From positions 1-23,678 of IMG/VR virus record IMGVR_UViG_3300028559_000194: a DNA stretch of 23,678 nt, one strand, 5' to 3'. A program made the translations under genes and the position numbers. The notes beneath the pieces are model-generated. The model did not search any database. It saw nothing but the letters and a program-made list of their open reading frames with translations, and was not told where the DNA came from. Numbering within the stretch: the stretch's first letter is position 1; every line of letters starts with the position of its first letter. This DNA comes from a virus. This document shows positions 354-22,141 of the stretch, piece by piece.

Positions 354-355
354 AA

Positions 356-2863: not shown

Positions 2864-2873
2864 ATGTTATTAT

Positions 2874-3278: not shown

Positions 3279-6200
3279 AATATAGTTGCAGGTTCTCTGT
3301 AAAAATTTCCATTTGTGACATCAAAACCAGCTGCTGGCACAGTAGGTCCTACTTTTGTTGTGCAATTTAATAACAAGACAGCAAATAAATTTACTGATGT
3401 GTTTTGATAACTGGCGTAAGCTGTGGTATCATACAATTTGTTGACATGAGCAACAATAGTGTTGCCCCCAAAACCTGTATTTGCATTTTGCTCATTTCCA
3501 ATTTGATTTATAAAAGTTTCACTAAATGCAACCCAATTGTTTCTGAATCCAAAACCGCCCGTACCTCCCCAAAACCAATTTGCTTGTCCTCCTGCTTGTC
3601 CTCCAAGGACTACACTGGAATCAATTTGAAGAATGCTTTGAGCAAACCTATAATTACTGAAATCTCCTTGAGCCATGCTAAGGGTTAAACGCATCATGGA
3701 TTGAGCACAAAAAAAACCTTCTCCAACCGTACCACCAATATCAACTCTGTTATTTCCCAAATATATATTCATGTTAACAAAATCAAAACCAAGATACCAG
3801 CCCACATAACTATTATTGTATTGTTTGTTGAAAAGTGTTCCATGCCGCATACCAGTATTAAAGTTAATGCTAAAAAAACCTCCTGTTATTCCATTAACAT
3901 ATTGTGCAGCATGATATATTGTGCAACCATTAAAAGATACATTTTGAAAATTATGTGTTATACAATCTGTTATTGTAACATTATTATAATTAGTTTTATT
4001 GTTGGATGCTCGGCCCCTAACAAAAGGGGCAAATGCTCGCAACACTAGTGAATCTGAAGTCATTGATGATGAGCTGTCACAAGTCACAAAAAAATGAATT
4101 GCTTGACTAAAAATTGCATTTGTTGGACTGGCTAATGTCCAACTGTTATAATTTCTCAAAACTTGAGTTGCATAAAATCTTCCCAAATTGATTGTTGAAG
4201 AGTTTTGACATATTGCAGCATAAATATAATTTCCCCAAACGCCTATGCTTCCTAAATTTATTTCTGCTCCATCATTACTAAGAAAAAGAGATAATGCTGC
4301 TGTTGCATTTTCCCTAACAAATACCATATTATCTAATAATCTTAATGTTGCATTGGTTATGGCAAGTTGATGACTGCTAGTGTTGGTTGAAAAATCAATT
4401 TTGCTTTTGAAAATCTTGTTAGTAGCAAATTGTGTAAAACCACCAGCTGGAGCAACAGCGTCTATATTATAACCAAAATTGTTTATTCCGTAAATTGGCA
4501 GTTTTTGACCAGATACAGGATAAATGGTAACTCCTGTTGAATTAGGAGCCATGGTTGGTGTGATATGACCATAAGACATCATTTCAATAGTCACGTCATT
4601 TCCTGCAACAGCCACCACTTTATGACAGCCCTTGTAACGTTCAAAAGCTGTTTTTACAAGATAAGGTGTTGCTGTTGATATGGTGGCACTTCTGCCGCTG
4701 TTGCCTGCTCCGTTTGTATATAAAGGAGGAAACACAATGCATCGGTTTGTGCCACTAGTTTCATAAACATGTGTAAATTGACCCAATGCATGAATAAAGT
4801 CGCCTTCATTCAAATATGTGTTTGTGCTAACTGCAGTATTATCAAATGATAATATTGCCCGAGTTCCGTCTGGATGCAATGCTTGTGTAAATTTATTTCC
4901 AATGTTTGAATCTTTTGTTCCAACTTGCACCATGATGTAGCGAGCATCATTTCCTAATGAAAATGCTTGAGCACTGAGTGAAAGTGAATGCCATCCAATA
5001 CCACCAAATGGTGTAGGTCCTATTGATGTTATTGGAATTACTGCACTGGTAACAGGTCCTGCAGCAAATGGGGATAATTTTGTTATTAATGCCCAATCAT
5101 TTGTTCTTATATTATGATAAGCTCCTGATCTAACGGCAACTGGTGCTGCGCTTGGTTGCAAAGTAATTGTATAACTACTGACATCTTGCATTTGACTGCA
5201 CCAACCAACATCTCTTCCAGAAACGCTTTCAATTGTGACATAATCACCAACTGCAGGAATGGTGCTGAATGTGCTATCAAGAGTTATGGTGGCGCTTAAA
5301 GTGGGAACATTTACACCACTGGTAGATACAATTGGATTGGTTCCGTTATTTGTGGATCTCCAACTATATGTATTGGCACCTTTAATTGTTATGCGATTAC
5401 CATAAGGATGCGATACATCAATTTGATTTGGTGAGATAAAAGTTTCATCATCTAAAAGTATTTGTACATTTGCCGTGCTATCAAAAGCATAACTTGATAA
5501 ACTATTCAATGCACCTGTAATATTTTTGTATGTGCGAGTGCTGCCCACAGGAATGTTGATATTTCCTCCAGTAAGTTCGAATGTGTTTCCTGTAATGGTC
5601 ACTTCACCAAGACCGCTGCTGGGATTTAATATTATGCCAGGTCCTGCCACAATTCGGCTTACTCCTCCAAGACCGCCAATATCATAAGCGCTAAGAGTTG
5701 CCACATCCAACACGTCACCGCTGCTCAATCCTTCTGATAAAGTAATGGTGCTGCCATTTGATGCAGAGTAATCCAATCCATTGACCAAATGACTTCCGTT
5801 CAAATACACATCCAAAGTTGGTGAAGAATAAAGAAGAGTATTTCCCAAATCATCCGGTCCAGTTATGTTGATGGTACCTTGAGCAACTGTGGTTGGACAA
5901 GTGTAACGATAATTGGTTTGGAAAACAGTTCCACCTCCGCTAAGAAGATTTGTGATGGTGACACCTGTTGCACTGAGTGTGACCACATCCACAACGTCTC
6001 CCTCATTCATGGTGCTCAAGTTTAGGATTTGTGTGCTGTTGTTGGCTATGAAATCTTGATTGTCTACAAGATGCACACCATTGCGATACACATCCAATTG
6101 ACCAGTTGTGTATGAAAGATAATTGCCGTAATCATCCATGCCACTGACAGCATTTAGATTTTCACCACCATCAATTGTGTAACGATAATTGATGCGTTTT

Positions 6201-6376
6201 ACAGTTCCAACACTACCGCCTGGTGTGAAACCTTTTGCAATAAGCAATCCGCTGATGGCAACTGTAAGACTGTCCAAATCAGTGCGTATTTCGTCTACAT
6301 TACGATAACCCACCACAAAGTCTGTGGCGCTGAGAACAGTTTGAGGGGTAAATTGTGTAAAATTCTTGAGTGCCAT
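3275..6376 (-). CDS. Tail fibre / receptor-binding appendage, longer paralogue (1033 aa)
   Basis: Three-part protein. Residues ~1-50 (LSATDFVVGYRN, then RTDLDSLTVAISGLL) resemble the virion-proximal start of marine myovirus fibres. Residues ~61-138 and ~153-231 are two copies of a repeat built on 'NYRYT ... DDxGNxLxYxxxxLDVYxNGxHLVxxxDY ... GDVxDVxTLSA', a beta-rich module seen in fibres of large marine phages. From ~267 (ELTGGNINIPVGST) a region shared with the 835-residue fibre begins, followed by a divergent Asn/Gly/aromatic-rich C-terminal half, probably the host-contacting part. No catalytic motif is seen. The gene is followed by its chaperone with a 4-nt overlap and is preceded by AGTAAATA 8 nt before the ATG. 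Codon use looks uniform with its neighbours. Function is inferred from repeats, size and neighbours. Confidence 0.88.
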   Translation of the reverse strand: MALKNFTQFTPQTVLSATDFVVGYRNVDEIRTDLDSLTVAISGLLIAKGFTPGGSVGTVKRINYRYTIDGGENLNAVSGMDDYGNYLSYTTGQLDVYRNGVHLVDNQDFIANNSTQILNLSTMNEGDVVDVVTLSATGVTITNLLSGGGTVFQTNYRYTCPTTVAQGTINITGPDDLGNTLLYSSPTLDVYLNGSHLVNGLDYSASNGSTITLSEGLSSGDVLDVATLSAYDIGGLGGVSRIVAGPGIILNPSSGLGEVTITGNTFELTGGNINIPVGSTRTYKNITGALNSLSSYAFDSTANVQILLDDETFISPNQIDVSHPYGNRITIKGANTYSWRSTNNGTNPIVSTSGVNVPTLSATITLDSTFSTIPAVGDYVTIESVSGRDVGWCSQMQDVSSYTITLQPSAAPVAVRSGAYHNIRTNDWALITKLSPFAAGPVTSAVIPITSIGPTPFGGIGWHSLSLSAQAFSLGNDARYIMVQVGTKDSNIGNKFTQALHPDGTRAILSFDNTAVSTNTYLNEGDFIHALGQFTHVYETSGTNRCIVFPPLYTNGAGNSGRSATISTATPYLVKTAFERYKGCHKVVAVAGNDVTIEMMSYGHITPTMAPNSTGVTIYPVSGQKLPIYGINNFGYNIDAVAPAGGFTQFATNKIFKSKIDFSTNTSSHQLAITNATLRLLDNMVFVRENATAALSLFLSNDGAEINLGSIGVWGNYIYAAICQNSSTINLGRFYATQVLRNYNSWTLASPTNAIFSQAIHFFVTCDSSSSMTSDSLVLRAFAPFVRGRASNNKTNYNNVTITDCITHNFQNVSFNGCTIYHAAQYVNGITGGFFSINFNTGMRHGTLFNKQYNNSYVGWYLGFDFVNMNIYLGNNRVDIGGTVGEGFFCAQSMMRLTLSMAQGDFSNYRFAQSILQIDSSVVLGGQAGGQANWFWGGTGGFGFRNNWVAFSETFINQIGNEQNANTGFGGNTIVAHVNKLYDTTAYASYQNTSVNLFAVLLLNCTTKVGPTVPAAGFDVTNGNFYREPATIL

Positions 6377-7745: not shown

Positions 7746-9449
7746 ATGAGAAAAGATTTGCAAAACATACGAGAAAGCTATGAACGTAATGTTTTGAGGG
7801 AAAATGTGGATCGCCTGGATTTTCTAAAAAACAAGTATGTTCCATTATTTTACGCCAAGCTTTTGCACATCTGGCCCGATGAAAGCAACCTTCCCAGCAG
7901 TTACGAAGATTTTAAAAAAGGAACAGAAACCAATTCCAAATACAAAGCTTATTTGGAGTTTCTGAGTGAAACCATTGACAATCTGATAGGAGCAGATCCT
8001 TTCAGCAAAGTAGACATGGAAAAAGGAGCAGGATATGCTGGTCAATACAGTGATTGGATATTAAAAACATTTCTGAAAATATTTGATGAAAAAGGTGAAG
8101 GTGCTGGAAAAACATTAAATGACCTGAAACGATTCATGAACGAGGATCTTTATAAATTGAACAGTGATTTGAAAATTTACGATAAAAACAAAAGCAAGGT
8201 TTCCCTTAACAAAAAAAATGTGCGAGATATCAATCAAGTTCCTGATTTTAAGAACCTTTATTACATCATCAAACAATTTGTACCCAAATATGAGGAGGAA
8301 CTGGTCAAGGACAAAACCAAAGTGCGAATTCTTTTGGACAACAGCCAGTATTTTGTGGGTGTTCCTCTTTCACTTTCTGCCAGTCAAAACCTGGGCAACA
8401 ACACCAGATGGTGCACCGCTGCTCGAAGTGATAACAATACCTACTATGCATCATATACCAAGGACGGTCCTCTTTACATTGTATTCCTTAAAAATAAAGG
8501 AGAGTTGATCAAATATCAATTTCATTTTCCCAGCGGTCAATATATGGATTCAGATGATCACTCTATTGATGTTTTTGATTTTTTCAGCAATCATCCTATC
8601 ATAGGAAAAGTCATATTAGATGATTATGAAAAAACAGATCCAGACGAAAACGATTTGAAAAAGGCAAAATTGTTAACAGGTGGTATTGAAATACTAGACA
8701 AAGAACCAGAAGAATTTTTTCAAAATCTTTCAGTTCAAAACATCATTACCATGATTTCTATTGGACAATTAGATTTGGAAAAAATAAACAAAGGATTAGA
8801 CGTTCTTTCAAAATCTTTTGATAACAAAGCAACATTCACAGCTGACGGATTGCAATTAACAATAATCAAAAATGAAACAGATGAATTTCTGGAAGATTTT
8901 TACAATTATGGAATCAATCGGGTAATTCAGGGGTTTCTTTACAATCCTGTCAGCGTATTTTTTGATGGAAATGAAGATCAGGAAATGGTTCCATTTGTTC
9001 TAAACAATATTTTAAATGCAAAACAAAAACAAAGTATACAACGAGTATTTTCTGATATTGCTGAAAATCCAGAATCATCTGATGAATTTTATAACATTTG
9101 CAGAAATGTTTTGAATAGCCATATCAAAAAAACATCAACACAATATTTGAAAAATGTCGTACTTGATGTTTTTAAAACTCGAGGAATTATTTTTAATAAA
9201 AAAGGAAGAAAAAATGAATTACTCATTCCTTTCGATTCTCTTCTGGACATTTTCAAAGGAGAAAACTCAACGAACTTTCTGAGTTTATTGGAAAATCCTT
9301 CATATTACACAAAACTAGGAGAATTGATACCAGATGTTTCCAATGATCAAATTGAAGATGAAAAGAGTAATTTCATAGATTTTGTTTCACAAAATATTGA
9401 TCGTAAACAAATTGCAGATGATATTATTAAAAAGACAGATAAACGTTAA
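7746..9449 (+). CDS. Unknown phage protein with 'WCTA' domain and capsid-targeting-like N-terminus (567 aa)
   Basis: Residues 1-20 (MRKDLQNIRESYERNVLREN) form a helix ending in L17-R-E19, like other N-termini in this window. Residues ~80-180 hold the segments YAGQYSDWILKTF and VRDINQVPDFK. Residues ~192-290 form a beta-rich domain whose hallmarks are LGNNTRWCTA (~216-225), YYASYTKDGPLYIV and KYQFHFPSGQYMD. The same pattern (DI..F, then G...[WF]C[TI][AS], then Y..Y and [LF]Y[IF]V) recurs in the 355-residue protein at 11492, so I treat it as one domain with an invariant Cys. From memory, similar 'WCTA' proteins occur in several large phages without assigned function. The C-terminal ~270 residues are helical and unrecognised. 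A perfect TATAAATA lies just upstream. Late expression and packaging into the head are inferred, not shown. Confidence 0.82.
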   Translation: MRKDLQNIRESYERNVLRENVDRLDFLKNKYVPLFYAKLLHIWPDESNLPSSYEDFKKGTETNSKYKAYLEFLSETIDNLIGADPFSKVDMEKGAGYAGQYSDWILKTFLKIFDEKGEGAGKTLNDLKRFMNEDLYKLNSDLKIYDKNKSKVSLNKKNVRDINQVPDFKNLYYIIKQFVPKYEEELVKDKTKVRILLDNSQYFVGVPLSLSASQNLGNNTRWCTAARSDNNTYYASYTKDGPLYIVFLKNKGELIKYQFHFPSGQYMDSDDHSIDVFDFFSNHPIIGKVILDDYEKTDPDENDLKKAKLLTGGIEILDKEPEEFFQNLSVQNIITMISIGQLDLEKINKGLDVLSKSFDNKATFTADGLQLTIIKNETDEFLEDFYNYGINRVIQGFLYNPVSVFFDGNEDQEMVPFVLNNILNAKQKQSIQRVFSDIAENPESSDEFYNICRNVLNSHIKKTSTQYLKNVVLDVFKTRGIIFNKKGRKNELLIPFDSLLDIFKGENSTNFLSLLENPSYYTKLGELIPDVSNDQIEDEKSNFIDFVSQNIDRKQIADDIIKKTDKR

Positions 9450-11047: not shown

Positions 11048-11425
11048 TCAACTGTATTTTTTAATAACTTTACGAGCTTCTTTTTCGTTGATTCCGCTCA
11101 TATGACTCATTATTTTATTAAAAGTTTTTACATTCTTTAAATAACGCTTGGCTTGACTAAGTTTATATTTTTCAAAACTATCCATTTTCCTATTTTGTTT
11201 TGACAATAAATCAGGAGCTTTTTCTGTTTTGGTTTCTTCTTCTTCATCTGCAAGCTTTCCATCACCACCAGTGGCTTTATCTATGGCTTTTCCTCGAGCT
11301 TTTTCGTAATCACTCAGTTTTCCGTCTTTGTTTAAATCAGATTTTTTTACATCAATAGCATCTTCGTCAGTGGCTTTAACCATCTTATATTTTTCTAAAA
11401 TAAGATCAATTTCGTTATTCAACAT
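11048..11425 (-). CDS. EF-hand-like calcium-binding protein with capsid-targeting-like start (125 aa)
   Basis: Residues ~30-41 read DLNKDGKLSDYE, a full EF-hand loop: Asp1, Asn3, Asp5, Gly6, hydrophobic 8, Ser9 and Glu12. The helix after it, KARGKAIDKA, is present. A second stretch (GGDGKLADEEEE) resembles a degenerate loop. The C-terminal ~45 residues are basic and helical (KYKLSQAKRYLKN, then EARKVIKKYS). The N-terminus MLNNEIDLILEKY ends a short helix in I9-L-E11, the pattern found in several proteins here. A perfect TATAAATA lies 5 nt before the ATG, so late expression is likely. EF-hand loops of this kind occur in structural proteins of marine phages. Calcium binding is likely; the role is unknown. 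Confidence 0.82.
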   Translation of the reverse strand: MLNNEIDLILEKYKMVKATDEDAIDVKKSDLNKDGKLSDYEKARGKAIDKATGGDGKLADEEEETKTEKAPDLLSKQNRKMDSFEKYKLSQAKRYLKNVKTFNKIMSHMSGINEKEARKVIKKYS

Positions 11426-11491: not shown

Positions 11492-12559
11492 ATGCCTTTT
11501 AATCGGGATCAGCATATTATTTTTGAAAAATATCTTACTCTGACAGAGAAGGTTTCGTTAGATGGTATTCTTAATCTTTTGCAGAATAAAAATGAAAAGA
11601 TAGCAGCCAAACTTCTTGAAATGGACAAAACAACAAGCAAAGGACATGTTCTTAAATTGGCAAAATTCTTTAATGAAGTACAAAATCTGGATGTCTTATC
11701 CGAATATTATAAAAAGTTTTTGGAACTGAAAAAGCGTAATCGTATACAAGACATCACTGGTTTCAAATCATTCAATGAAATGGAAAATGCAATCGATGCA
11801 ATGGAAACAAAAGTTAACCTTTCCATGCCTGAAGAAGTTGGTGATGCTGAGAAACCACTTTACGAGGATGAAAATATAAAAGTTTTTGAAGGAGAGAATC
11901 GTGCCAAATGTGTAAAACTAGGAAGCAATTATAAATTTTGCATCAGTCGCCCAGATCGCGGAAATGCTTATTCCAATTATCGTTTAAGAGATCAATCCAG
12001 TTTTTATTTTGTTCGTTTGAAAAAACGCACTGATGAAATGAAAAATGGTGAGTATGTGGATCCTGCACATTTGATGGTTATTGATGCTTTACCTAGAGGT
12101 GAATATAACTGGACATGGGCAGATAATGGTTGGCAGGGACATGGAACAACCAGAGTTACCAAAGAACAGGCAATCAAAGAATTTCCAGAATTGAAACCTG
12201 CTTTTGACAAAATTATAACTGCAAAACCTTTGACACGGGATGAAAAAAGCAAAATTGAAAAGTTCAATGAATTGGCTAGTGACTTTGATGTAAAAATTTT
12301 TAACAGTTTAAAATATTCTGAAAAAGAAGAATTTATTCAACAAGGTGGTGTTGAACTTACTTTTGATGCATGGAAAACTCTTGATAAAAATCTTCGTAAT
12401 GAATATTTGAAAAATATTGAAAATTTTGATCGTGAAATATTTGAAGATCTTAAACCAAACGAAAAAGTTGTGTTTGAAAAACAAATTCAAAAAAGTGCCG
12501 AAGCCGAATTCAATTATTTTCTTTATTTAGATAAATTAATCGAAAAAGATGAACGATGA
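11492..12559 (+). CDS. Unknown protein with 'FCIS' domain related to the 567-residue protein (355 aa)
   Basis: The N-terminal helix MPFNRDQHIIFEKYLTLTEK ends in L17-T-E19, the same position as in three other proteins here. Residues ~85-245 hold IQDITGFKSFNEME, then LGSNYKFCIS (~143-152), YSNYRLRDQSSFYFVRLKK, and NWTWADNGWQGHGTTR. This parallels the DI..F / G..TRWCTA / YYASY / LYIVFLK order of the protein at 7746, with Trp-Cys-Thr replaced by Phe-Cys-Ile. I therefore read it as a diverged copy of the same domain. The last ~110 residues are charged helices. A perfect TATAAATA precedes the start. The gene overlaps the next by 11 nt, so it is translated with the 29-residue-repeat protein. Biochemical function is unknown. 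Confidence 0.8.
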   Translation: MPFNRDQHIIFEKYLTLTEKVSLDGILNLLQNKNEKIAAKLLEMDKTTSKGHVLKLAKFFNEVQNLDVLSEYYKKFLELKKRNRIQDITGFKSFNEMENAIDAMETKVNLSMPEEVGDAEKPLYEDENIKVFEGENRAKCVKLGSNYKFCISRPDRGNAYSNYRLRDQSSFYFVRLKKRTDEMKNGEYVDPAHLMVIDALPRGEYNWTWADNGWQGHGTTRVTKEQAIKEFPELKPAFDKIITAKPLTRDEKSKIEKFNELASDFDVKIFNSLKYSEKEEFIQQGGVELTFDAWKTLDKNLRNEYLKNIENFDREIFEDLKPNEKVVFEKQIQKSAEAEFNYFLYLDKLIEKDER

Positions 12560-13685
12560 TATACAACAAAAACAACAGGATCTGGTTGTTAACATAGCAA
12601 AAGATCCTTATGTGGCCATGCGTTTTGCTCGACACATGCGTTCTCAAGAAAAACCCATTCCGGATATTATTCTGAAATCAATTATAAACGAACCTTTGGC
12701 AGGATCTAATTTTGCTTTGGAATTGGCACGTGATTATATTTTATTGAATGATCCTGTGCCTGAAATATTATTGGATAGAATTATAACCAATTCTAAAAAT
12801 TCATATTATATTGCAAAATATTATAAAAAAAATAATCAACAAATACCTGACAAGGTTTTAAAAAGCGTACAAAATTCACCATTTGCAAGATTATCATTTG
12901 ATGAAGACGAAGAACAATCAAACGAACCTGCTATCAAGCAAGAATTGCGAAAAAAAATTTTAGCGGATCCAAAGTATGCTCTTCGATACGCAAAGGTTTT
13001 AGTTCAAAACGGTAGACCTGTTCCTGACAGTGTGGAAGATTCGTTCACAGATTCTCCCGAATCTGCTAATGAATATGCAAAAACAATAATATCTAATAAT
13101 GGTGAAGTTTCACAAAAAATATTTGATATCATTGAAAAAGATAATTATCAAAGTTTTGATTTTGCTAATAGTATACTTCAACCAAAAGTTGGATATGGTC
13201 CGTCTAATGCAGCAAAAATTGCTCCATTACAAATAATAAAATCACTTGCAAAATATTCGGGTAATGCAACAGCATATGCAACAGAGTATTTAAAACAAGT
13301 TGATAAATATGATAAAACAATTTTAGACGTGCTAGAAAATGGAATTAAAAAAGGAGTAACAGTTAGTTTTAAAGGTGATGAAGATAAAGACATATCTGAA
13401 AATGTTTCAAAATATGTTATGGCATATGTGGATTCTGTTGGGGAATTACCATCTAAAGAAATGCTTAAATTGACTAAAGCTAAAAGTCTTGTTTATATTA
13501 GTAACATTCTTTGGTCTCAAAATAAAGAAATTCCACAGGAAATTATTGATACAATTGCTAAAAATGGCAGTGCATCATATGCATTTGTTGCTCGATATAA
13601 AATGTTAAAAGGTGGAAAAACGCTTCCTAGCATTTATAAAAAAATTGAAAATAGTGCCAGAAATTACAACGAAAATACTATTTAA
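12549..13685 (+). CDS. 29-residue helical-repeat protein A (378 aa)
   Basis: Built largely from repeats whose usual length is 29 residues. Clear units are at ~17-45, 46-78, 79-107, 138-166 and 167-195, with looser ones to the end. The consensus is x-x-[DNS]-P-x-x-A-x-x-[YF]-A-x-x-[LIM], a short loop, then [IV]-P-[DE]-x-[IL]-[LI]-x-x-I. Two helices per unit are expected, making an alpha-solenoid as in TPR- or HEAT-like scaffolds. Units ~108-137 and ~280-320 carry acidic insertions. The same repeat makes up the proteins at 17959 and 18702, so this is a local gene family. The ATG overlaps the preceding gene by 11 nt. I do not recognise a named family. Protein binding is a fair guess from the architecture only. 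Confidence 0.8.
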   Translation: MNDDIQQKQQDLVVNIAKDPYVAMRFARHMRSQEKPIPDIILKSIINEPLAGSNFALELARDYILLNDPVPEILLDRIITNSKNSYYIAKYYKKNNQQIPDKVLKSVQNSPFARLSFDEDEEQSNEPAIKQELRKKILADPKYALRYAKVLVQNGRPVPDSVEDSFTDSPESANEYAKTIISNNGEVSQKIFDIIEKDNYQSFDFANSILQPKVGYGPSNAAKIAPLQIIKSLAKYSGNATAYATEYLKQVDKYDKTILDVLENGIKKGVTVSFKGDEDKDISENVSKYVMAYVDSVGELPSKEMLKLTKAKSLVYISNILWSQNKEIPQEIIDTIAKNGSASYAFVARYKMLKGGKTLPSIYKKIENSARNYNENTI

Positions 13686-13757
13686 AATAAATTGATTTTT
13701 TTTAACACCCTGTAAAATAAAGGTTGTGGTAATACTATCTTTGGAAATAATGTAAAA

Positions 13758-13946
13758 ATGAATGTTTTAAAAGAATCAGAAACTGAATACAAGCAATTTA
13801 TACAAAAATACAGCAACGCTTTTAGTGCCACGATTCAAGATGTGGATCGGGATGCTAAAGCCAATATCAAATCAAATATTTGTTTGAATAAAATATATGA
13901 TCTTTTTTTGGATTTTATAATTGATTCAAAAAGACTACTAAAATAA
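13758..13946 (+). CDS. Small helical protein (62 aa), unknown
   Basis: The product starts MNVLKESETEYKQFIQKYSN and ends KIYDLFLDFIIDSKRLLK. It is entirely helix-forming and lacks the [LI]-x-E end of the other N-termini. The gene lies 72 nt after the repeat protein, with only a weak AT-rich motif upstream. It converges on nrdB, with 9 nt between the stop codons. The match to local codon use supports it; no function can be given. Confidence 0.55.
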   Translation: MNVLKESETEYKQFIQKYSNAFSATIQDVDRDAKANIKSNICLNKIYDLFLDFIIDSKRLLK

Positions 13947-13963
13947 CTTTATATATTAAAGTT
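13945..13963. terminator. AT-rich hairpin across the stops of convergent genes
   Basis: AACTTTA (13945-13951) pairs with TAAAGTT (13957-13963) over a TATAT loop. It overlaps both the TAA of the 62-residue gene and the stop of nrdB. The 15-mer ACTTTATATATTAAA recurs at 22949-22963, again in a convergent gap. No G-C pairs beyond one, so termination strength is doubtful. Confidence 0.3.
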
Positions 13964-15020
13964 TAATGTCGGCAAAATCATTATCTGTAACTGTTGTGTC
14001 TCTTGCAGCAATTTTGTATGATTGCAATTCTGTTTCTTGGGGTGCTGCCTGGACTTTGCTGCTGTCCATATAACTGTCCATCCACCCAGACAATGGATTT
14101 TCTTTTTGATTAAAAATCTTTTTATATCCTAAACTGCGCAGTCTGTTATCACAAAGCCATTTGGTGTATCCGGTCACAACCTCTTCATTTAAACCCAACA
14201 GATTGCCTTTGCTAAAAAGATATTTGCACCATTCATTTTCATTTTTTGTGGCTTGTTCATATATTGCATAAATTTTGTCTTCATTCTTTTTCACAAGTGA
14301 AGTGAAACCTTCTTTTTCTTCATCTCGTAATATTTTTAAAAGATTTTGACTCACACTAAAATGCAAAGCTTCGTCTCGTTGAATGAACTTTACAATTTTA
14401 GCATTGCCTTCCATTTTGCCTCGATAACCAAAATAAAAACTGCAGGCAAAGCTTACATAAAACACCAATCCTTCCATTACATTAATGGAAAGAATGCAAT
14501 CTAATATTTTTTGTTTAACATCTTTTTTATCTTCATCTCCTAATATTTTATCATAACTATTGCGTATCAATTCAGCCCTATTCAATATTTCTTTATCCTC
14601 CATAATGCTGTCAAAAAATTTGGTAGCATCTGGGTAAACATTGTTGAGCAAATAACTGTAGCTATAACTATGAATTCCTTCAAACTGAGCCCATGTGTTC
14701 ATGCATATTTCCAATTCAGGATTGGTCACATATTCTTTTAATGAATGAATGCTTCTGGAAAGCATGCTGTCTCCCAGTGTTTGAAATCTTAAATTACTAT
14801 CAAAAACAAAACGTTCTGTATCTGTCAAATCGTTGTAATCGCTACGATCTTTGGATAATGTGATTTCATGCGGCCACCAAAAGTTCTCGTTTTGTTTTTT
14901 AAACAATTCAAAAAATATAGGATATTTGAAACGATCATATCTTTGCAAGTTCAAATCTTCACCAAGAAACAATGGTTGCTTGGTGGTGTCGATATTTTTT
15001 AAATTTAAAACTGTTTTCAT
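13956..15020 (-). CDS. nrdB: Ribonucleoside-diphosphate reductase, beta subunit (class Ia, R2)
   Basis: Carries the dimetal-tyrosyl cofactor that starts the radical chemistry turning ribonucleoside diphosphates into deoxy forms. Metal ligands are all present: D84, E114, H117 (FEGIHSYSYSY), E183 (VMEGLVFYVSF), E217 and H220 (RDEALH). The radical tyrosine is Y121 in the HSYSY motif, and F187 matches the conserved Phe near the iron site. The C-terminus (DNDFADIKL) resembles the tail that docks onto NrdA. Length 354 compares with 376 in E. coli. The gene lies 24 nt after nrdA on the same strand, with TATAAATA between them, so it may be transcribed both with nrdA and alone. It would supply dNTPs for phage replication. 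Confidence 0.97.
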   Translation of the reverse strand: MKTVLNLKNIDTTKQPLFLGEDLNLQRYDRFKYPIFFELFKKQNENFWWPHEITLSKDRSDYNDLTDTERFVFDSNLRFQTLGDSMLSRSIHSLKEYVTNPELEICMNTWAQFEGIHSYSYSYLLNNVYPDATKFFDSIMEDKEILNRAELIRNSYDKILGDEDKKDVKQKILDCILSINVMEGLVFYVSFACSFYFGYRGKMEGNAKIVKFIQRDEALHFSVSQNLLKILRDEEKEGFTSLVKKNEDKIYAIYEQATKNENEWCKYLFSKGNLLGLNEEVVTGYTKWLCDNRLRSLGYKKIFNQKENPLSGWMDSYMDSSKVQAAPQETELQSYKIAARDTTVTDNDFADIKL

Positions 15021-15027
15021 GTAATTT

Positions 15028-15035
15028 TATTTATA
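15028..15035 (-). promoter_or_regulatory. TATAAATA between nrdA and nrdB
   Basis: A perfect TATAAATA, 7 nt before the nrdB ATG, inside the 24-nt gap after nrdA. It is unexpected because reductase genes are normally expressed before late genes. It could be chance in AT-rich DNA, or could give late beta-subunit synthesis. Confidence 0.4.
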
Positions 15036-15044
15036 CCAGCAGGA

Positions 15045-17318
15045 TCATAATTTGCAAGCACCACTGTTGCAATCTTGATCTTCTTTTTGGTTCATCATTT
15101 GTTCTTTATCACCATCATCGGTATTGTTGTAATAAAGACTAATTAATCCCAGACTGTAAGCATACATGATTTCTTTCATGACAGTTGCATCAGGAAGAAT
15201 ATGATTTTCATAATGACTATAGTTGTAATAAACATTGGTGCTTATGGCCATGTCCAGGTATTTTTGAATAATTGCATTAATGTTAAGCAAACCTTTATTG
15301 TTTCTAAGATCATAAGCTAGTTGATAATTTTTTTCATATTTTCCTATTCCAGGAACAAGCACCGGAAGTTTACCCATTTTGCTCATTTTATAAGTGATTA
15401 ATGAGCGAATAGGTTCCACCCCATTTGTGCTGGATTGTATCACGCTACTACTTTCACACGGCATGCAACTGCTGAGTGTGCTGTGTCGCAATCCGTGTTT
15501 TTCTATGTCTTTTCGTAATTGTTGCCAATCACATGTTAGTTTGCGTTTGGTTAAACCTTTGATGCTGTCTTTGAATGTATCAATTGGCAATATTCCTTTG
15601 CTGTATTTTGTGCAATTAAACTTTTCACAAGATCCCCGTTCCTGGGCCAGTTTGTTGCTGCTTTTCAAAAGATAATACTGAAAATATTCCATCCATTCGT
15701 CCAGTAAAGAAAGAGATTTTTCATCATCATAATTCGTTTCATGCTTTGCTAGAAATGCCGCAAGATTCGTGATTCCAATTCCAAGACTCCGGCGTTTGCT
15801 TGCAAAGTTCTTGGCAGCAACATTAAAATAATCCTGCAAATCAATAATCTCTTCTAAAAATCTAACAGTCAAATCACATATCTTTTCCAGTTCATTCCAA
15901 TTTTTAATTTCCAGCATGTTGATCGCACTGAGAATACACATGCCAATTTCAGCTTCAGGATCATGATAATCCCGCATGGGTATGGTTGGATGTATAACCT
16001 CTAAACAAAGATTGCTCATGGTAATCTTGTCTAGCCATGCACCATGTTCATTTGCATTATCCACATTTAAAATATAAATTCTTCCGGTTTCTACCCGTTC
16101 TTTTATAATTGTACCAAAAAGCTTTCTGGCACTAATTTTCTTTTTTAATTTTAAACGACGACTTTCATGTTCTTTGTAAACCTTGTCAAAACTTTCGGTT
16201 CCCCAAGCTTCAAAAAGTTCTGGCACTTCATGTGGACTGAAAAGAGTTACTTCCTCATTGTTGCGTACCCGTTCATAAAACAGTTTGCTCATGCCTACTG
16301 TATAATCCAATTTGCGAACACGATTGTCATCTGTTCCTGCATTGTTTTTCAAAACAACAATATCTTCAATCTCATAGTGCCACCATTGAATGTTGCAAGT
16401 GGCACTACCTCCTCGCAATCCGTTTTGTTGCCATGCTTTCACACTGGCTTCATATATCTTCAAAAAAGGAATAAGACCGGTATGCACCACTTCACCATTC
16501 TTTACGGCTGAACCTGCTGCACGAATGCGACTCACATCAATTCCTATTCCACAACGGTTAGCAGTGGCCATGCTGACAGCAGTAGCGCTGCTGGTGATGC
16601 TGTCTTTGGTATCATCCACGCCTATAAGACAACAACTGGCATAATTTCTGGAACTGGTACGAAGACCAGCCATGACAGGTGTGGGAAGATTGATTTTGTG
16701 TTTGCTGATTGCATTATAAAATCTACACACATATTCCATTCGGGTTTCTTCTGGATAATTCATGAATGCAGTCATGCTGATCAGCATATAAGCAAATTGA
16801 GGTGTTTCATGAATTTCACCACTCACTCGATCTTTGATCAGATATTTGTCACATAATTGTTTTATGCCAGCATAGGTGAAAATATAATCCCTATCATGAT
16901 CCATATTCTCTCCTATTTTATTAATTTCATTATCGCTATATTTTTCCAAAATAACCGAATCATAAATTTTCTTTTTGACTCCAACATGAAGAAAGTCTTT
17001 TAACCGAGGCGGATGTTTTCCTCCCCAAACATCTTTTCTAAGTTGATAATTTAATAAACGAGCTGCCACATATTGATAATTGGGATGATTCACGCTGATC
17101 AAATTGGCTGCACTTTCTATGATCAATTTGTGAATTTCTTCAGTCCTGATGCCATCATGAATGTTTATGTTTGCATTGATTTCAATATCGCTGGGACTCA
17201 CCCCGGTATAACCATTGATGGCCCATTCAATTACCTTGGTGATTTTGGATAGATCAAAGTTTTCCGTCTTGCCGTTTCTTTTTTTTACGAGAATTTGTTT
17301 CATGGTTGGAGTAGTCAT
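15045..17318 (-). CDS. nrdA: Ribonucleoside-diphosphate reductase, alpha subunit (class Ia, R1)
   Basis: Catalytic subunit making deoxyribonucleotides. At 757 residues it nearly equals E. coli NrdA (761). An N-terminal ATP cone, the allosteric activity site, is at ~8-95 (VKKRNGKTENFDLSKI). Active-site cysteines are C229 (YASCCLIG) and C461 (MCILSA), with the thiyl-radical C438 in SNLCLE between N436 and E440. The radical-transfer pair Y729-Y730 (LYYNNTDDG) and the C-terminal shuttle C750-x4-C755 (CNSGACKL) are intact, so the enzyme should be active and re-reduced by thioredoxin or glutaredoxin. LKNNAGTDDNRVRKLDY is a strong family match. No late-type motif precedes the ATG. nrdB follows after 24 nt. 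No intron or intein is seen. Confidence 0.98.
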   Translation of the reverse strand: MTTPTMKQILVKKRNGKTENFDLSKITKVIEWAINGYTGVSPSDIEINANINIHDGIRTEEIHKLIIESAANLISVNHPNYQYVAARLLNYQLRKDVWGGKHPPRLKDFLHVGVKKKIYDSVILEKYSDNEINKIGENMDHDRDYIFTYAGIKQLCDKYLIKDRVSGEIHETPQFAYMLISMTAFMNYPEETRMEYVCRFYNAISKHKINLPTPVMAGLRTSSRNYASCCLIGVDDTKDSITSSATAVSMATANRCGIGIDVSRIRAAGSAVKNGEVVHTGLIPFLKIYEASVKAWQQNGLRGGSATCNIQWWHYEIEDIVVLKNNAGTDDNRVRKLDYTVGMSKLFYERVRNNEEVTLFSPHEVPELFEAWGTESFDKVYKEHESRRLKLKKKISARKLFGTIIKERVETGRIYILNVDNANEHGAWLDKITMSNLCLEVIHPTIPMRDYHDPEAEIGMCILSAINMLEIKNWNELEKICDLTVRFLEEIIDLQDYFNVAAKNFASKRRSLGIGITNLAAFLAKHETNYDDEKSLSLLDEWMEYFQYYLLKSSNKLAQERGSCEKFNCTKYSKGILPIDTFKDSIKGLTKRKLTCDWQQLRKDIEKHGLRHSTLSSCMPCESSSVIQSSTNGVEPIRSLITYKMSKMGKLPVLVPGIGKYEKNYQLAYDLRNNKGLLNINAIIQKYLDMAISTNVYYNYSHYENHILPDATVMKEIMYAYSLGLISLYYNNTDDGDKEQMMNQKEDQDCNSGACKL

Positions 17319-17449
17319 TTAGTTGTACCATACAATTCGTCAAATCATATTTTTTTTCTTTTGATTTGAAATAATTTTTCGATACATTTTTATTTAGAGT
17401 TGAGGACGTAAAAATTTTTTTTCTGTTATGAAAAAAGTAAATACAAATG

Positions 17450-17477
17450 TTGACACACCATCAACAACATATAGAAT
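17450..17477 (+). promoter_or_regulatory. Sigma-70-like promoter
   Basis: A perfect -35 TTGACA (17450-17455) is followed after 16 nt by TAGAAT (17472-17477). The ATG at 17484 is only 6 nt further, leaving almost no leader. The gap between nrdA and this gene (17319-17483) otherwise holds only AT-rich sequence and a 17-codon frame that I do not accept. Confidence 0.4.
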
Positions 17478-17483
17478 ATAATA

Positions 17484-17687
17484 ATGACAGTTAAAAAATT
17501 AAAAGAAATTTTAAATAACCATCATGAGGATTTACACGTGTTTATACGTGGTTATGAAGGTGGATATGCAGATGTTAAAAATATAATCAATGCAAAAATA
17601 AAAAAGAATGTGAATAAAGAATGGTGGTATGGACCTCATGAAATAAATAATAAAAACTACGATAAGGAAGGAATTATATTGGAATGA
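17484..17687 (+). CDS. Small protein (67 aa), unknown
   Basis: Begins MTVKKLKEILNNHHEDLHVF, followed by IRGYEGGYADV and WWYGPHEIN. A 'vkxLxexLnxxhpdxxVxixgyegGyadv' pattern is common in small hypothetical proteins of phages and bacteria, and likely forms a compact alpha/beta unit with a Gly-rich turn. The stop overlaps the next ATG by 4 nt (ATGA), starting a chain of coupled small genes. It may be served by the sigma-70-like promoter just upstream. Confidence 0.72.
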   Translation: MTVKKLKEILNNHHEDLHVFIRGYEGGYADVKNIINAKIKKNVNKEWWYGPHEINNKNYDKEGIILE

Positions 17688-17857
17688 AATACATAGAACA
17701 AATCAAAGACGAATATGGAAATCTTATGCAGTTGTGGGGCATATATGAAAAAACCGAATATGAGCTTTTTGAAGAAGGAAACCATATTACCAAAAGGAGA
17801 TTGTTAAGAACGTTTGAATCATTGACAGCAGCAAATCATTTTTTGAAAAAAACATGA
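17684..17857 (+). CDS. Small protein (57 aa), unknown
   Basis: Read by hand between 4-nt ATGA overlaps on both sides. The product starts MKYIEQIKDEYGNLMQLWGI and continues YEKTEYELFEEGNHITKRRL, ending ESLTAANHFLKKT. The alternation suggests a small beta-hairpin followed by a helix. No family is recognised. The tight overlaps are strong evidence that it is translated. Confidence 0.65.
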   Translation: MKYIEQIKDEYGNLMQLWGIYEKTEYELFEEGNHITKRRLLRTFESLTAANHFLKKT

Positions 17858-17943
17858 GTCCAAAATTGTTTGAATATTTTATTGTAATATTGGGTGTTAT
17901 TGCAAATATTGTGCTGATTGTTAATGCTCTGCATCATTGGTAA
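17854..17943 (+). CDS. Tiny membrane peptide (29 aa)
   Basis: The ATG overlaps the previous stop (ATGA). The product MSPKLFEYFIVILGVIANIV plus LIVNALHHW is essentially one transmembrane helix with short ends. Tiny membrane proteins next to other small genes are common in phages and may act on the host envelope or on superinfection, but nothing here decides this. It could also be a chance frame, though the exact coupling argues against that. Confidence 0.5.
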   Translation: MSPKLFEYFIVILGVIANIVLIVNALHHW

Positions 17944-17945
17944 AT

Positions 17946-17953
17946 TGTAAATA
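17946..17953 (+). promoter_or_regulatory. Late-promoter-like motif TGTAAATA
   Basis: TGTAAATA ends 5 nt before the GTG at 17959, the same octamer and gap as at 7563-7570. Confidence 0.5.
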
Positions 17954-17958
17954 ATTAG

Positions 17959-18705
17959 GTGACATTCGCTTTTTACAAGAAACTGTTGTTGGGTGAGGAA
18001 AGCAGCTTTCAACAGCAGTATATGGCTAAACTGTTGGAACCAGGAGAAGACAGCCGAAATCGTCGTTTGATTTATGCAACAAAGCTGGCGTTGCGAAATC
18101 GTGCCATACCAGAACCAATTCAAAACATTATATTATCCACCCCCTTTGAAAGCATGGTTCTTGCTTATAATTTGAAAATAAGCAATATACAACCCGAAGA
18201 AAAATATCTAAGAGTTTTGGCCAATCAACCAATCAAAGCTGCTCAATATGCTAGACTATTGTCAGATAAAGGAGAAAACGTACCTGAATTTATTTTGCAA
18301 AGCATAAGCAACGATCCACAAGAATCAGAACGTTTTGCAAGCCATCTTATGATGAGCAATGTAAGCCAGTATCATCGAAATGTGGATGGAAAAGAGGTGA
18401 GCATACGCAGGGTCAAAGAATTGCCTGTTCCCCTAATCATATTAAAAGGAATAGCAGGAGATCCAGAAGTTGCACATGGATACATGTATTATATTATAAA
18501 ATATACCGATAAAAAAGTTCCAGAAATATTGATAAAAGGATTATCAACTCGGCCTGATTTGGCAATTGATTTGGAACAAAATTATCGCAATTTAAATAAG
18601 AGTGCACCCTCTAGTTTGCATGAAATTATCAGCACCAGCAAGCAGTTGCAAAATGCAGTTGCAAACCGCAAGAAAAAGGGAAGAAAGGGCAATGCATTTT
18701 TGTGA
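17959..18705 (+). CDS. 29-residue helical-repeat protein B, GTG start (248 aa)
   Basis: GTG is chosen because TGTAAATA lies 5 nt before it. The N-terminus MTFAFYKKLLLGEES has L11-G-E13, like other packaged-type leaders here. From ~41 on it is made of the repeat described for the protein at 12549; the clearest unit is 88-116 (ANQPIKAAQYARLL, then NVPEFILQSI), with others at ~60-87, 117-165 and 166-195. The unit at 117-165 has a ~20-residue insertion rich in charge (NVDGKEVSIRRVKELPVP). A very similar insertion (NFDTGEETSRFKFP) occurs in the next protein, suggesting a shared beta-hairpin side feature. Its stop overlaps the next start as GTGA. The C-terminus is basic (NRKKKGRKGNAFL). Function is unknown. 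Confidence 0.8.
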   Translation: MTFAFYKKLLLGEESSFQQQYMAKLLEPGEDSRNRRLIYATKLALRNRAIPEPIQNIILSTPFESMVLAYNLKISNIQPEEKYLRVLANQPIKAAQYARLLSDKGENVPEFILQSISNDPQESERFASHLMMSNVSQYHRNVDGKEVSIRRVKELPVPLIILKGIAGDPEVAHGYMYYIIKYTDKKVPEILIKGLSTRPDLAIDLEQNYRNLNKSAPSSLHEIISTSKQLQNAVANRKKKGRKGNAFL

Positions 18706-19478
18706 AAACCTATCGTTTTTTTCTGGAGGATATAAAACAAGATTTATACGATAAAATAAAAAAAAATCCTTATTATGCAAGTAAACTTATTGAAAAGCTC
18801 AGATTAAACAAAAGAGAAATACCTGATGAATTATTAAATTTGTTCTTGCATAATCCAGAGTATCTGGATAACATTTTACGAAATATGATTGCTGATTCTG
18901 ATTGGAACACACTAAACAATCCCATTATTAAAAAAATATTAGAACAGCATGCAGTTTTATCTTTTGATTTGTTTGAATTATTATATGATTATCACATAGA
19001 AAAATTAGAACAATTGTTTAATAATAAAAATCCGTTTTTATATGCATTATACAAAGGCATAAGCAAAGATTCTGTATTATCTAAAAAATTAATGTTAAAA
19101 TATGCAGGAAAAATGATTAAGGTTAATTTTGACACAGGAGAAGAAACATCAAGGTTTAAATTTCCCATCATCATATTAAATTCAATAAATGATGAAATGG
19201 CAACCGCATATGAATTTGCACAAATTCTTTTGGACAGGGACAAGAAAGTTCCAGAATCCACAATGAAAAAACTTGCAACAAGTGTTGTTTACAGCATTCA
19301 AATTGCATTATATTATAATAAAGAAAGAAACAGAAACGTGCCAGAAATAATTTTAAAAACAATTGCGGATCATAAAAGGGGCACTCTCACATATTACCAA
19401 TATTTGATAGAAAGAAATCTACCAGTTCCAAAAATTATAATTGATGCATTGGACAAATGGGGCGGTCCTGGTATTTAA
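18702..19478 (+). CDS. 29-residue helical-repeat protein C, GTG start (258 aa)
   Basis: Starts at GTG within a GTGA overlap with the previous gene. The first residues, MKTYRFFLED, closely resemble the T4 internal-protein leader (MKTYQEFIAE, from memory) and end F7-L-E9. Clear 29- or 30-residue repeats are at 20-48 (KKNPYYASKLIEKL, then REIPDELLNLF), 163-191, 192-221 and 222-250 (RNLPVPKIIIDAL). The middle (~50-160) is more diverged and includes the NFDTGEETSRFKFP insertion shared with its neighbour. With proteins A and B it forms a three-member family. Tandem placement of B and C points to local duplication followed by strong divergence. Function is unknown. Confidence 0.8.
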   Translation: MKTYRFFLEDIKQDLYDKIKKNPYYASKLIEKLRLNKREIPDELLNLFLHNPEYLDNILRNMIADSDWNTLNNPIIKKILEQHAVLSFDLFELLYDYHIEKLEQLFNNKNPFLYALYKGISKDSVLSKKLMLKYAGKMIKVNFDTGEETSRFKFPIIILNSINDEMATAYEFAQILLDRDKKVPESTMKKLATSVVYSIQIALYYNKERNRNVPEIILKTIADHKRGTLTYYQYLIERNLPVPKIIIDALDKWGGPGI

Positions 19479-19939: not shown

Positions 19940-20515
19940 ATGAAAGCGTTGCAAAAAAGGTTCTGTGTGCAGGATCTGAAAAATTTGTTCCGGGCAGATT
20001 ACCAGAATGGCATAATATATTGCAAAAAAACAGGCAGGGCCATATTAAACAAGCCTAACAAAGATGGTTATTTGCGGGTAGGAATAAAAAATAAACAGAA
20101 TGGTCGATACAAACCTTATTATATTCATGATGTGATTTTTTACATGAAATACCATTGGCTGCCTGAAGAAATGGATCATGTTAATCACGTTAAAAATGAT
20201 AACCGGGATGTTAATCTGCAACCCAGCAATCACAATCTGCAACAAGTAAACATGCCTAAAAAAAATGGAAAAAGCAGCAGATACAAAGGAGTATGTTATT
20301 ATGCCTGTAAAAAAAGCAAAAAATGGCGGGCCAGTCTTCAACACAGGGGAAAACATCTGAGTCTTGGACATTATGAGAATGAACAGGATGCAGCAAAGGC
20401 ATATGACAAATCAGCTTATGCCCTATGGGGAGAATATAGTCGACCCCATCTTAATTTTCCAAACCTTATAAACAATAATATGGTGCAACAATTATTGAAT
20501 CTGGAACTTGCTTAA
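19940..20515 (+). CDS. HNH endonuclease with AP2 DNA-binding domain, copy 1 (191 aa)
   Basis: Free-standing homing-type endonuclease. Residues ~20-60 hold the usual lead-in (GIIYCKKTGRA, then KDGYLRVGI). The HNH site runs ~62-95: YIHDVIFYMKY (H63), MDHVNHVKNDNRDVNLQ (D79-H80, N92). An AP2/ERF-type DNA-binding domain is at ~113-173 (SRYKGVCYY, KWRASLQHRGKHLSLGHYE, AAKAYDKSAY, LNFP). Such genes spread by cutting DNA near their own site. D79 is followed by HVNH, where canonical copies have HING, a small change near the active site. A TATAAT box (19925-19930) is just upstream, unlike the TAAATA motifs of its neighbours. No interrupted host gene is seen next to it. Confidence 0.93.
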   Translation: MKALQKRFCVQDLKNLFRADYQNGIIYCKKTGRAILNKPNKDGYLRVGIKNKQNGRYKPYYIHDVIFYMKYHWLPEEMDHVNHVKNDNRDVNLQPSNHNLQQVNMPKKNGKSSRYKGVCYYACKKSKKWRASLQHRGKHLSLGHYENEQDAAKAYDKSAYALWGEYSRPHLNFPNLINNNMVQQLLNLELA

Positions 20516-20525
20516 TATAACAATT

Positions 20526-21110
20526 ATGAAAAGAGCAATAGAAAAAGCATGGAAGAACAGGGAGGATATGTTAAAAGATATACGGCCTGATCCTGAAACC
20601 GGAATTGTATACAGCAGAAGAACAGGCAAAAGTATAGGGGTACTTCATATAGATGGTTATGTACGCATTAGTAAACGTGCAAATGGAAAACATTACAACA
20701 TAAAAAGAAGCCATGTCATATGGTGGAGCAAGTACCAAAAAATGCCCCCTGTAAAAATGTGTATTGATCATATTGATGGGGACAAAACAAATGATAGAAT
20801 AGAAAATTTGCAAATTCTTAGCAATCAACAAAATATTGCAAAAAAAAAGAAAAACACAAAAGCATTTTCAAAATACAGGGGAGTTAGATTTAGAAAAGAT
20901 AGGAAAAAATTTGAAGCTCGGGTAAGAAAATGGGGAAAAGAATATAATTTTGGAGGTTACGAGGATGCGAAAGAAGCGGCGGTTGCCCGGGATAGAGGCG
21001 TGATAAAATTATATGAAAAAGAAATGAAGGAGACAGGCTTTTTACCGCCTCTTAACTTTCCAGAGATTTTACAAAATAATAAAGAACTTGTGCAACTGGA
21101 ATTGTTTTAA
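20526..21110 (+). CDS. HNH endonuclease with AP2 DNA-binding domain, copy 2 (194 aa)
   Basis: I start at ATG 20526, since the TTG at 20508 would overlap the first HNH gene for no gain. The layout matches copy 1: lead-in DPETGIVYSRRTGK, then HIDGYVRIS; the HNH site with H63 (RSHVIWW) and the canonical IDHIDGDKTNDRIENLQILS (D81-H82, N94); and an AP2 domain at ~115-178 (SKYRGVRFRK, KKFEARVRKWGKEYNFGGYE, AAVARDRG, LNFP). The catalytic motif is closer to consensus than in copy 1. The two are homologous but well diverged, so they are either an old tandem duplication or separate insertions. It is probably an active nicking or cutting enzyme. Confidence 0.94.
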   Translation: MKRAIEKAWKNREDMLKDIRPDPETGIVYSRRTGKSIGVLHIDGYVRISKRANGKHYNIKRSHVIWWSKYQKMPPVKMCIDHIDGDKTNDRIENLQILSNQQNIAKKKKNTKAFSKYRGVRFRKDRKKFEARVRKWGKEYNFGGYEDAKEAAVARDRGVIKLYEKEMKETGFLPPLNFPEILQNNKELVQLELF

Positions 21111-21452: not shown

Positions 21453-21590
21453 ATGGCTATTAATAAGATTAATGAGCTTTATTATCAAAGTCGAAAGATT
21501 TTGAAAGAAAATAGGAATGATGAATTAACACATGAGGATGCCGAAGAAACAACCAAGCAGGATCTGGCTGATTTAAACGAGAAAAATTAA
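21453..21590 (+). CDS. Very small acidic protein with shared leader (45 aa)
   Basis: Read by hand. The leader MAINKINELYYQSRKILKEN is very like that of the protein at 22239 (MDIDKINQLYYTNRKLLQEQ), both with L17-x-E19. The remainder is only ~25 residues, acidic and probably disordered (RNDELTHEDAEETTKQDLAD). It therefore looks like a targeting peptide with almost no cargo: either a remnant of a larger gene like 22239 or a genuine short scaffold-type protein. Its stop overlaps the stop of the opposite-strand gene at 21587 in the shared tetramer TTAA. CATAAATA lies 5 nt before the ATG. Confidence 0.7.
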   Translation: MAINKINELYYQSRKILKENRNDELTHEDAEETTKQDLADLNEKN

Positions 21591-22141
21591 ACTTCAGGAT
21601 TTTTATCCTGCACAAACTGACTGAAGGTTCCTAGTTTTTTTAATTTTCTTTGCCTTTCGTGTTCTAATCTTTTTCTTCTGTATTCTGGATCATTGGCATA
21701 TTTTTGCTTTTCGTGTTCTAATTTTTTTCTTCTATATTCTGGATCATTGTCATATTTTTGCTTGCTTTGTTCTAACCTTTTTCTTCTGTATTCTGGATCA
21801 TTGGCATATTTTTGCCTTTCGTGTTCTAATCTTTTTCTTCTGTATTCTGGAGCACTGACATATAACTTAGTATATAATTTTTCAAATGCTTTTTGCATAC
21901 CATTTTTTTTGAAATAAAGAAGCGCCTCAATTTGATCATCTGTCGCATGTGGGAACATTATTTTGAGTTTGGTAGTATATTTGCCGTGATAATCCACATA
22001 AGTTTCACTGGAAAAAGGAGAACTTCCACTTTTTTCACCCTCGGTTGTTTCTGGATCTTTTTGCAAATTACTTACAAAATCCTCTCCACCCAGAGGATTT
22101 GAACGCAATGTCATGTTTTCCCATAAAACCTGAAACTTCAC
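21587..22141 (-). CDS. Tandem-repeat coiled-coil protein, GTG start (184 aa)
   Basis: GTG 22141 is preferred over the ATG at 22114, because ATTAAATA ends 5 nt before it and it gives the leader MKFQVLWEN with L6-W-E8. Residues ~10-60 are polar (LRSNPLGGEDFVSNL, then SSPFSSETYVDYHGKYTT). Residues ~62-95 form a helical unit (PHATDDQIEALLYFKKNG). Residues ~97-168 are four 18-residue repeats of [AD]PEYRRKRLEHERQKYAN, almost all charged, likely a long single helix or coiled coil able to bind nucleic acid. The C-terminus contains GTFSQFVQDK, which itself looks like a targeting leader at the wrong end. Similar 'PEYRxKxxE' repeats occur in phage and bacterial proteins of unknown role. Confidence 0.78.
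   Translation of the reverse strand: MKFQVLWENMTLRSNPLGGEDFVSNLQKDPETTEGEKSGSSPFSSETYVDYHGKYTTKLKIMFPHATDDQIEALLYFKKNGMQKAFEKLYTKLYVSAPEYRRKRLEHERQKYANDPEYRRKRLEQSKQKYDNDPEYRRKKLEHEKQKYANDPEYRRKRLEHERQRKLKKLGTFSQFVQDKNPEV
21638..21853 (-). repeat. Four tandem 54-bp coding repeats
   Basis: The TATTCT of each copy falls at 21681, 21735, 21789 and 21843, exactly 54 bp apart. Each copy encodes 18 residues (PEYRRKRLEHERQKYAN type), so copy-number change keeps the frame. The copies differ by only a few bases, suggesting recent expansion. Confidence 0.92.

Follow-up and report, generated by a model that had tools for sequence, protein, structure and literature searches.

The window analysed here, a stretch of viral DNA of 23,678 nucleotides (IMG/VR record IMGVR_UViG_3300028559_000194, positions 1 to 23,678), encodes three paralogous proteins, designated A, B and C, which are made of a usually 29-residue unit. 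This unit is a new variant of a repeat module that is common in metagenomic phage contigs and unnamed in the libraries searched; its closest known form is a 26-residue repeat with the motif DPxxAxxYA. The explanation of the locus that is favoured here, with moderate confidence, is that A pairs with the product of the gene directly upstream, E355, as a two-gene version of proteins in which a WCTA domain is joined to a helical solenoid, that B and C are free-standing relatives, and that these proteins are perhaps associated with the virion. Many large phages that have not been cultured encode such tandem-repeat proteins, which are almost never met in isolates and have neither a curated family nor an assigned function; in the split version of the window, the repeat is tied to one particular partner gene.

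An initial annotation of this DNA had placed three such proteins at 12549, 17959 and 18702 and had described a common repeat with several units of exactly 29 residues. All three open reading frames (ORFs) were found at these places, and the common repeat was borne out by unit profiles, which confirmed a spacing of 29 in A, B and C, and by cross-validation with shuffled sequences. Paralogy was also evident from blastp comparisons in a very small database (A–C, 4e-9; A–B, 1.7e-8; B–C, 2e-5). A profile seeded with eleven units of 29 residues, anchored at [IV]P[DE], detected four strong units in A (starting at residues 18, 51, 80 and 139), three in B (31, 89 and 168) and four in C (21, 164, 194 and 223), as well as weaker units, which occupy many of the gaps in the 29-residue register (A 168, A ~310, B 60 and B 118) and which in A are backed by helices in the structure model described below. 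Since the bit scores of the seed profile include the seeds themselves, unit profiles derived from one protein were cross-validated on the other two: the score exceeded all 1000 shuffles of each in six of six directions, with 46.9 bits versus a shuffled maximum of 8.2 for C on A, and 8.1 versus 7.5 for B on A, the weakest direction. The resulting consensus, D/N-P-x-x-A-x-x-Y-A-x-x-L, a loop and [IV]-P-[DE]-x-[IL]-L-x-x-I, is near that of the initial annotation. A charged insertion reported there as common to B and C was located in the same inter-helix loop in both proteins, but it is kept only in the orthologue of B and is missing from that of C, so that a common origin of the two insertions does not follow.

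An AlphaFold2 model of A, built on an alignment of three sequences, showed an unbroken run of helix pairs (mean predicted local distance difference test score (pLDDT) 85.8; predicted template modelling score 0.59), including pairs at residues 82-94/101-108 and 141-153/160-166, with low confidence in the acidic linker (119-126) and in a loop at 214-220. The model supports A as an α-solenoid of about ten two-helix units. Each unit of A, B and C would comprise a first helix of ~13 residues and, after a loop, a short second helix that begins at the [IV]P[DE] turn. The repeated two-helix unit for which the initial annotation had proposed structure prediction is thus present in the model of A; its α-solenoid assignment holds for A on a confident model and for B and C by homology only, and the latter two should accordingly be α-solenoids as well.

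Viral contigs were scanned with a pattern that required two DPxxAxxYA motifs at a distance of 24-32 residues; 56 stretches with tandem motifs were obtained, for which the chance expectation, as a rough estimate, was below one. The modal period was 26, observed in 220 of 262 spacings, with 27 in ten, 28 in four and 29 in none. Comparison of doubled 29-unit and doubled 26-unit profiles with hhalign scored 22.1 versus 7.0 ± 1.6 for column shuffles, and the alignment, which has a deletion of three residues, stays in register through the second helix and reaches the following unit; it includes the PE motif of the second helix, which is absent from the search pattern. When the 26-residue profile was applied to 10,828 ORFs gathered without the pattern, it matched only a WCTA protein of Salicola phage SCTP-2 (2.6e-6) and A (5.7e-4), and no decoys. 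Both repeats share the DPxxAxxYA motif of helix one, the PE turn of the second helix, the occurrence of several paralogues per phage and a link to WCTA domains. They differ in period (26 versus 29) and in the connection between helices, which is [RK][WF]PEAE in the 26-residue repeat and a longer loop ending in [IV]P[DE]xIL in A, B and C, whose units are also far more diverged. The 29-residue unit is therefore called a variant rather than a member, as its period is 29 and not 26, and on profile similarity it is very probably a longer-loop variant of the 26-residue family. The initial annotation had kept it apart from phage DPxYAxxYA repeats of a different period; this separation was not upheld, as the profiles align and an intermediate with units of 28 residues is joined to a homologue of E355.

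The 26-residue repeats are partly covered by PHROGs family phrog_28193, to which no function is assigned there, and literature searches for the repeat motif returned no paper containing it. Among isolated phages, tblastn searches detected the repeat only in SCTP-2. A large tandem array of paralogous 26-residue repeat proteins was observed in an 84,887-base contig (IMGVR_UViG_3300035181_001867; loci L155, L158, L161, L163 and L172), with about a dozen repeat ORFs at L163.

The intermediate is a single protein of 587 amino acids (aa) (L151:9834-11597, hereafter L151) encoded in a contig of 331,849 bases (IMGVR_UViG_3300037851_000141). Its N-terminal half matches E355 (32 % over 263 aa, 1e-27), and its C-terminal half consists of 28-residue units such as DPDYAYKYASNVLKWQNVPQEIITGISK and is matched by B at 8e-8. 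Since L151 fuses an E355-like half to repeats, the E355 and A genes would correspond to two halves of what is elsewhere one protein. In the window, E355 lies directly upstream of A and the two genes overlap by 11 bases; overlap is seen in the orthologous contigs too. L151 resembles the window proteins in its E355-like half and in repeats bearing the turn VPQEIITGI, and differs from them in being one polypeptide, in its near-identical units of 28 and in its location in a tail/baseplate gene cluster. A unit profile built from L151 alone was too narrow and did not find the window proteins.

The WCTA domain, marked by GxxT[RK]WCTA, is N-terminal in many 26-residue repeat proteins. A WCTA profile made without proteins of the E355 kind matched E355 at 3.5e-8 in a search of ~12,900 ORFs (best shuffled decoy, 0.35), and by this profile evidence E355 is a divergent member of this uncharacterised domain family. 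E355 departs from other WCTA proteins in that its solenoid is a separate protein and in that the motif WC[TVI][AST] is replaced by FCIS; an E355-like protein of a 595-kb phage has WCIA at this position. This 1076-aa protein (L197:7854-11084; LR756511.1) carries a long tail with a weak MgtE_N match and stands a few genes downstream of apparent capsid genes. Scans with the E355 family retrieved no additional viral contig and no bacterial relative.

A second, canonical WCTA protein of the window, D567, matched the profile at 5.8e-53, a value that is not independent, as an identical copy from locus L008 is contained in the WCTA model. D567 is related to EST35_0205 of Pseudomonas phage PA5oct (tblastn, 2e-6). 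The latter and gene 435 of SCTP-2, which has two DPxYA-like units, are examples of WCTA proteins (phrog_17056 and phrog_28193) that belong to the same domain family as D567 and, divergently, E355. SCTP-2 (L006 and L132) encodes at least seven WCTA paralogues, which end in DUF4116 repeats, in other helical tails or in DPxYA-like units. The AlphaFold2 model of D567 (pLDDT 79) showed a small strand-helix core and gave no significant match in a fold search (best, 0.14); repeated matches to proteasome-subunit folds were weak (E > 1) and were not used. Two or more 26-type units were found in 105 ORFs, of which 19 have their own WCTA domain and nine stand beside a WCTA gene; ORFs were taken from stop to stop and several loci come from one contig, so that these counts refer to ORFs and not to independent events. 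In the window, A adjoins a WCTA gene (E355), and B and C adjoin none.

Two other accounts of the repeat itself were considered. An independent origin, with the likeness to the 26-residue repeat due to convergence of short amphipathic helix pairs, is improbable. It would fit the lack of any significant database match for A, B and C, and the weak score of the 26-residue profile on A (5.7e-4), which falls mainly over helix one; as the search pattern was derived from the helix-one motif, likeness in that helix is partly built into the 26-residue set. The profiles, however, align in register across both helices, and the matches of B (8e-8) and E355 (1e-27) to L151 fall within one protein, the latter being independent of the repeat pattern. 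That A, B and C are diverged members of a curated solenoid family (TPR, HEAT, SEL1 or DUF4116) is less probable still and largely refuted. DUF4116 (PF13475) has been predicted to form an α-solenoid (PMC8078820), and its repeats also stand behind WCTA domains in SCTP-2 (3e-17), both of which speak for such a relationship. Its period, however, is 22, and the 29-unit profile scores 7.5 against it, equal to column shuffles (7.6 ± 1.8). TPR (34-residue unit), HEAT/Armadillo (37-47) and SEL1 (36-44) were covered in Pfam, the initial annotation having proposed a comparison with TPR, HEAT and SEL1 profiles; no model of these families or of DUF4116 matched A, B or C at E ≤ 1.

More broadly, no fitting family for A, B or C was found in Pfam, PHROGs or NCBIfam, and no match was obtained in the PDB by sequence with profiles of A and of the unit, by tblastn of A in 50,697 phage records, or by tblastn of the 29-residue consensus in named phages. 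The initial annotation, which knew of no named family with this repeat, was right in this respect; as for an existing repeat family, relatives do exist, and none of them carries a curated name. Matches of the tandem consensus in PHROGs and Pfam were dismissed as repetitive-query artefacts, no single stretch passing alone, and matches to MgtE_N, GerD and TPR_22 were under the cut-offs of these models. A fold search of A in a viral library returned giant-virus repeat proteins alone, at E > 1e-3.

Relatives of the locus were reached via the neighbouring AAA ATPase gene, which yielded 50 viral loci. One contig, IMGVR_UViG_3300032331_004459, carries orthologues of A (66 %), B (75 %) and C (61 %), and another, IMGVR_UViG_3300013126_000049, an orthologue of A (36 %) together with one more, short repeat protein. 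In the remaining ATPase relatives, whose contigs reach 288 kb, no repeat protein was seen within the parts searched, and scans of viral contigs with A, B or C as single proteins gave no match. The ratio of non-synonymous to synonymous substitution rates (dN/dS; pairwise NG86) was 0.25-0.47 for A, B and C versus their orthologues, with A at 0.47, and 0.07 for NrdB, 0.10 for the ATPase, 0.12 for D567 and 0.20 for E355. As orthologues exist with such ratios, A, B and C are, on these comparisons, real genes under purifying selection that evolve faster than their neighbours. Decaying or functionless repeats are exceedingly improbable: the ratio of A is high for the locus, but the frames are open, gene order and overlaps are kept in a second genome, and dN/dS is clearly below 1 for all three. 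The ATPase and D567 are both distantly related to proteins of the PA5oct group of Pseudomonas jumbo phages, and the window seems to be a piece of a large phage.

In large uncultured phages the solenoid often follows an N-terminal WCTA domain, either within one polypeptide or with the two encoded by neighbouring genes. E355 would be the WCTA half and A the solenoid half in the window, where their genes overlap; the pair is most simply read as a WCTA-solenoid protein split in two, and B and C would be free-standing duplicates. As the second domain, fused elsewhere, sits in the adjoining gene, E355 and A are suggested to work together, presumably as one two-chain unit; their physical partnership is slightly favoured, and the L151 fusion leads to the testable prediction that they bind each other. 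The fast-changing solenoid (0.25-0.47, against 0.07-0.20 for neighbours) beside a more conserved core suggests a binding arm, i.e. a protein-binding scaffold; this variable arm may bind a ligand and position the conserved WCTA core or direct it to a target.

The E355-A assembly might be part of the virion or be packaged with it, a tentative proposal towards which several relatives point. The genes clustered around L151 include one for a tail tube and others for the baseplate hub and wedge. EST35_0205 of PA5oct, annotated 'structural protein, ESI-MS/MS', matches the WCTA half of a WCTA+repeat protein (41 % over 217 aa, 3e-39), and its homologue in phage MIJ3 adjoins the large terminase gene. 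Head, portal, protease and sheath genes are among those next to WCTA/repeat genes, an observation made without a background rate. Several observations weigh against the WCTA-solenoid pair and its place in the virion. Only one fusion protein, L151, ties the E355 type to the repeat, and 77 of the 105 repeat ORFs have no adjacent WCTA gene, many of these ORFs being on contigs whose length does not allow a decision. Only generic helical repeats came out of the search of A against PDB folds; their TM-scores are low, and the best is a designed repeat protein (8e-4). The virion evidence comes from relatives of the partner domain and none of it from the three repeat proteins; among the PA5oct proteins labelled 'structural' are some that are unlikely to be so, such as an FtsH homologue (PMC6892783), and virion proteomics of MIJ3 named only four proteins, the WCTA protein not among them (PMC6892783). 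The window genes themselves stand among tail-fibre genes, a Nudix gene and NrdAB, with no recognisable morphogenesis cluster.

A different role for the same solenoid module would be an intracellular one: A, B and C would be adaptors that bind host proteins and serve host take-over, counter-defence or regulation, and E355 and D567 would supply the effector cores. The window and the orthologous contigs place these genes with Nudix, NrdAB, AAA ATPase and small-protein genes, A, B and C change faster than their neighbours, as is frequent in host-facing proteins, and several paralogues per phage, together with the large array in one 85-kb contig, would fit expanding adaptors. The location of L151 within a tail/baseplate cluster and the reported presence of the PA5oct WCTA protein in virions argue against such a role, which is considered rather unlikely and less probable than virion association. 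More doubtful than either is a general scheme in which WCTA-solenoid proteins would form an undescribed, virion-carried modular recognition system of large phages, with a WCTA core and interchangeable arms (26-, 28- or 29-residue repeats or DUF4116) supplied in fusion or in trans; B and C would in that case serve E355 or D567 as alternative arms.

Table 1. Coordinates of the repeat proteins, their units and the WCTA proteins in the window (res, residues)
Feature	Position	Strand	Basis
D567, canonical WCTA protein (LGNNTRWCTA), C-terminal half mostly helical	7746..9449	+	WCTA profile 5.8e-53
E355, divergent WCTA-domain protein (CVKLGSNYKFCISR)	11492..12559	+	WCTA profile 3.5e-8; homologue of L151 N-terminal half
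Protein A, 378 aa	12549..13685	+	ORF; unit profile; AlphaFold2 model; orthologues L009 66 %, L011 36 %
A unit 1, res 18-46, 29 aa	12600..12686	+	40.0 bits; helices 20-32, 39-46
A unit 2, res 51-79	12699..12785	+	33.1 bits
A unit 3, res 80-108	12786..12872	+	33.3 bits
A linker, acidic run around DEDEEQSNE, then helix	12873..12962	+	pLDDT < 50 at 119-126
A unit 4, res 139-167	12963..13049	+	36.7 bits
A unit 5, res 168-196, weak in sequence	13050..13136	+	5.1 bits; helices 170-182, 189-196
A units 6-8, degenerate, with loop insertions	13137..13475	+	Helix pairs 199-209/227-233, 237-250/256-268, 278-297/303-308
A units 9-10, res ~310-367	13476..13649	+	Unit 9, 9.6 bits; helix pairs 311-323/330-337, 340-353/361-377
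Protein B, 248 aa, GTG start, repeats from res 31	17959..18705	+	Units 31-59, 89-117, 168-196 at 29.5-32.9 bits; orthologue 75 %
B units 1-3, strict 29-residue register, res 31-117	18049..18309	+	Profile; middle unit 60-88 by register only
B unit 4 with charged loop insertion (~res 139-156)	18310..18459	+	Insertion equally long in orthologue
B unit 5, res 168-196	18460..18546	+	29.5 bits
Protein C, 258 aa, GTG start overlapping B stop (GTGA)	18702..19478	+	ORF; orthologue 61 %
C unit, res 21-49	18762..18848	+	28.9 bits
C charged loop insertion, ~res 135-155	19104..19166	+	Without counterpart in orthologue
C final three units, res 164-192, 194-222, 223-251	19191..19454	+	33.6-34.0 bits

Several further genes were noted in the window. 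At 1-6376 (minus strand), two tail-fibre-like genes encode proteins of 1033 and 835 aa. A small, tail-fibre-assembly-like protein with NPWTVWGNDQKLxSIRLQRNYLL comes after each of the two, and the small proteins are paralogous; in the 1033-aa protein the first ~265 residues are conserved in related contigs and the remainder is replaced. A conserved 125-aa protein at 11048-11425 (minus strand) contains the EF-hand-like stretch DLNKDGKLSDYE and has a weak dockerin match. Two tandem HNH/AP2-type endonuclease-like genes (19940-21110, plus strand) adjoin the B-C pair. The 184-aa protein at 21587-22141 (minus strand) has about four near-identical units like YANDPEYRRKRLEHEKQK and is probably a charged coiled coil; it contains NDPEY, yet its repeat is different from that of A, B and C. 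Finally, a 62-aa ORF following A (13758-13946, plus strand) is conserved in the two contigs with orthologues and in a relative of 230 kb.

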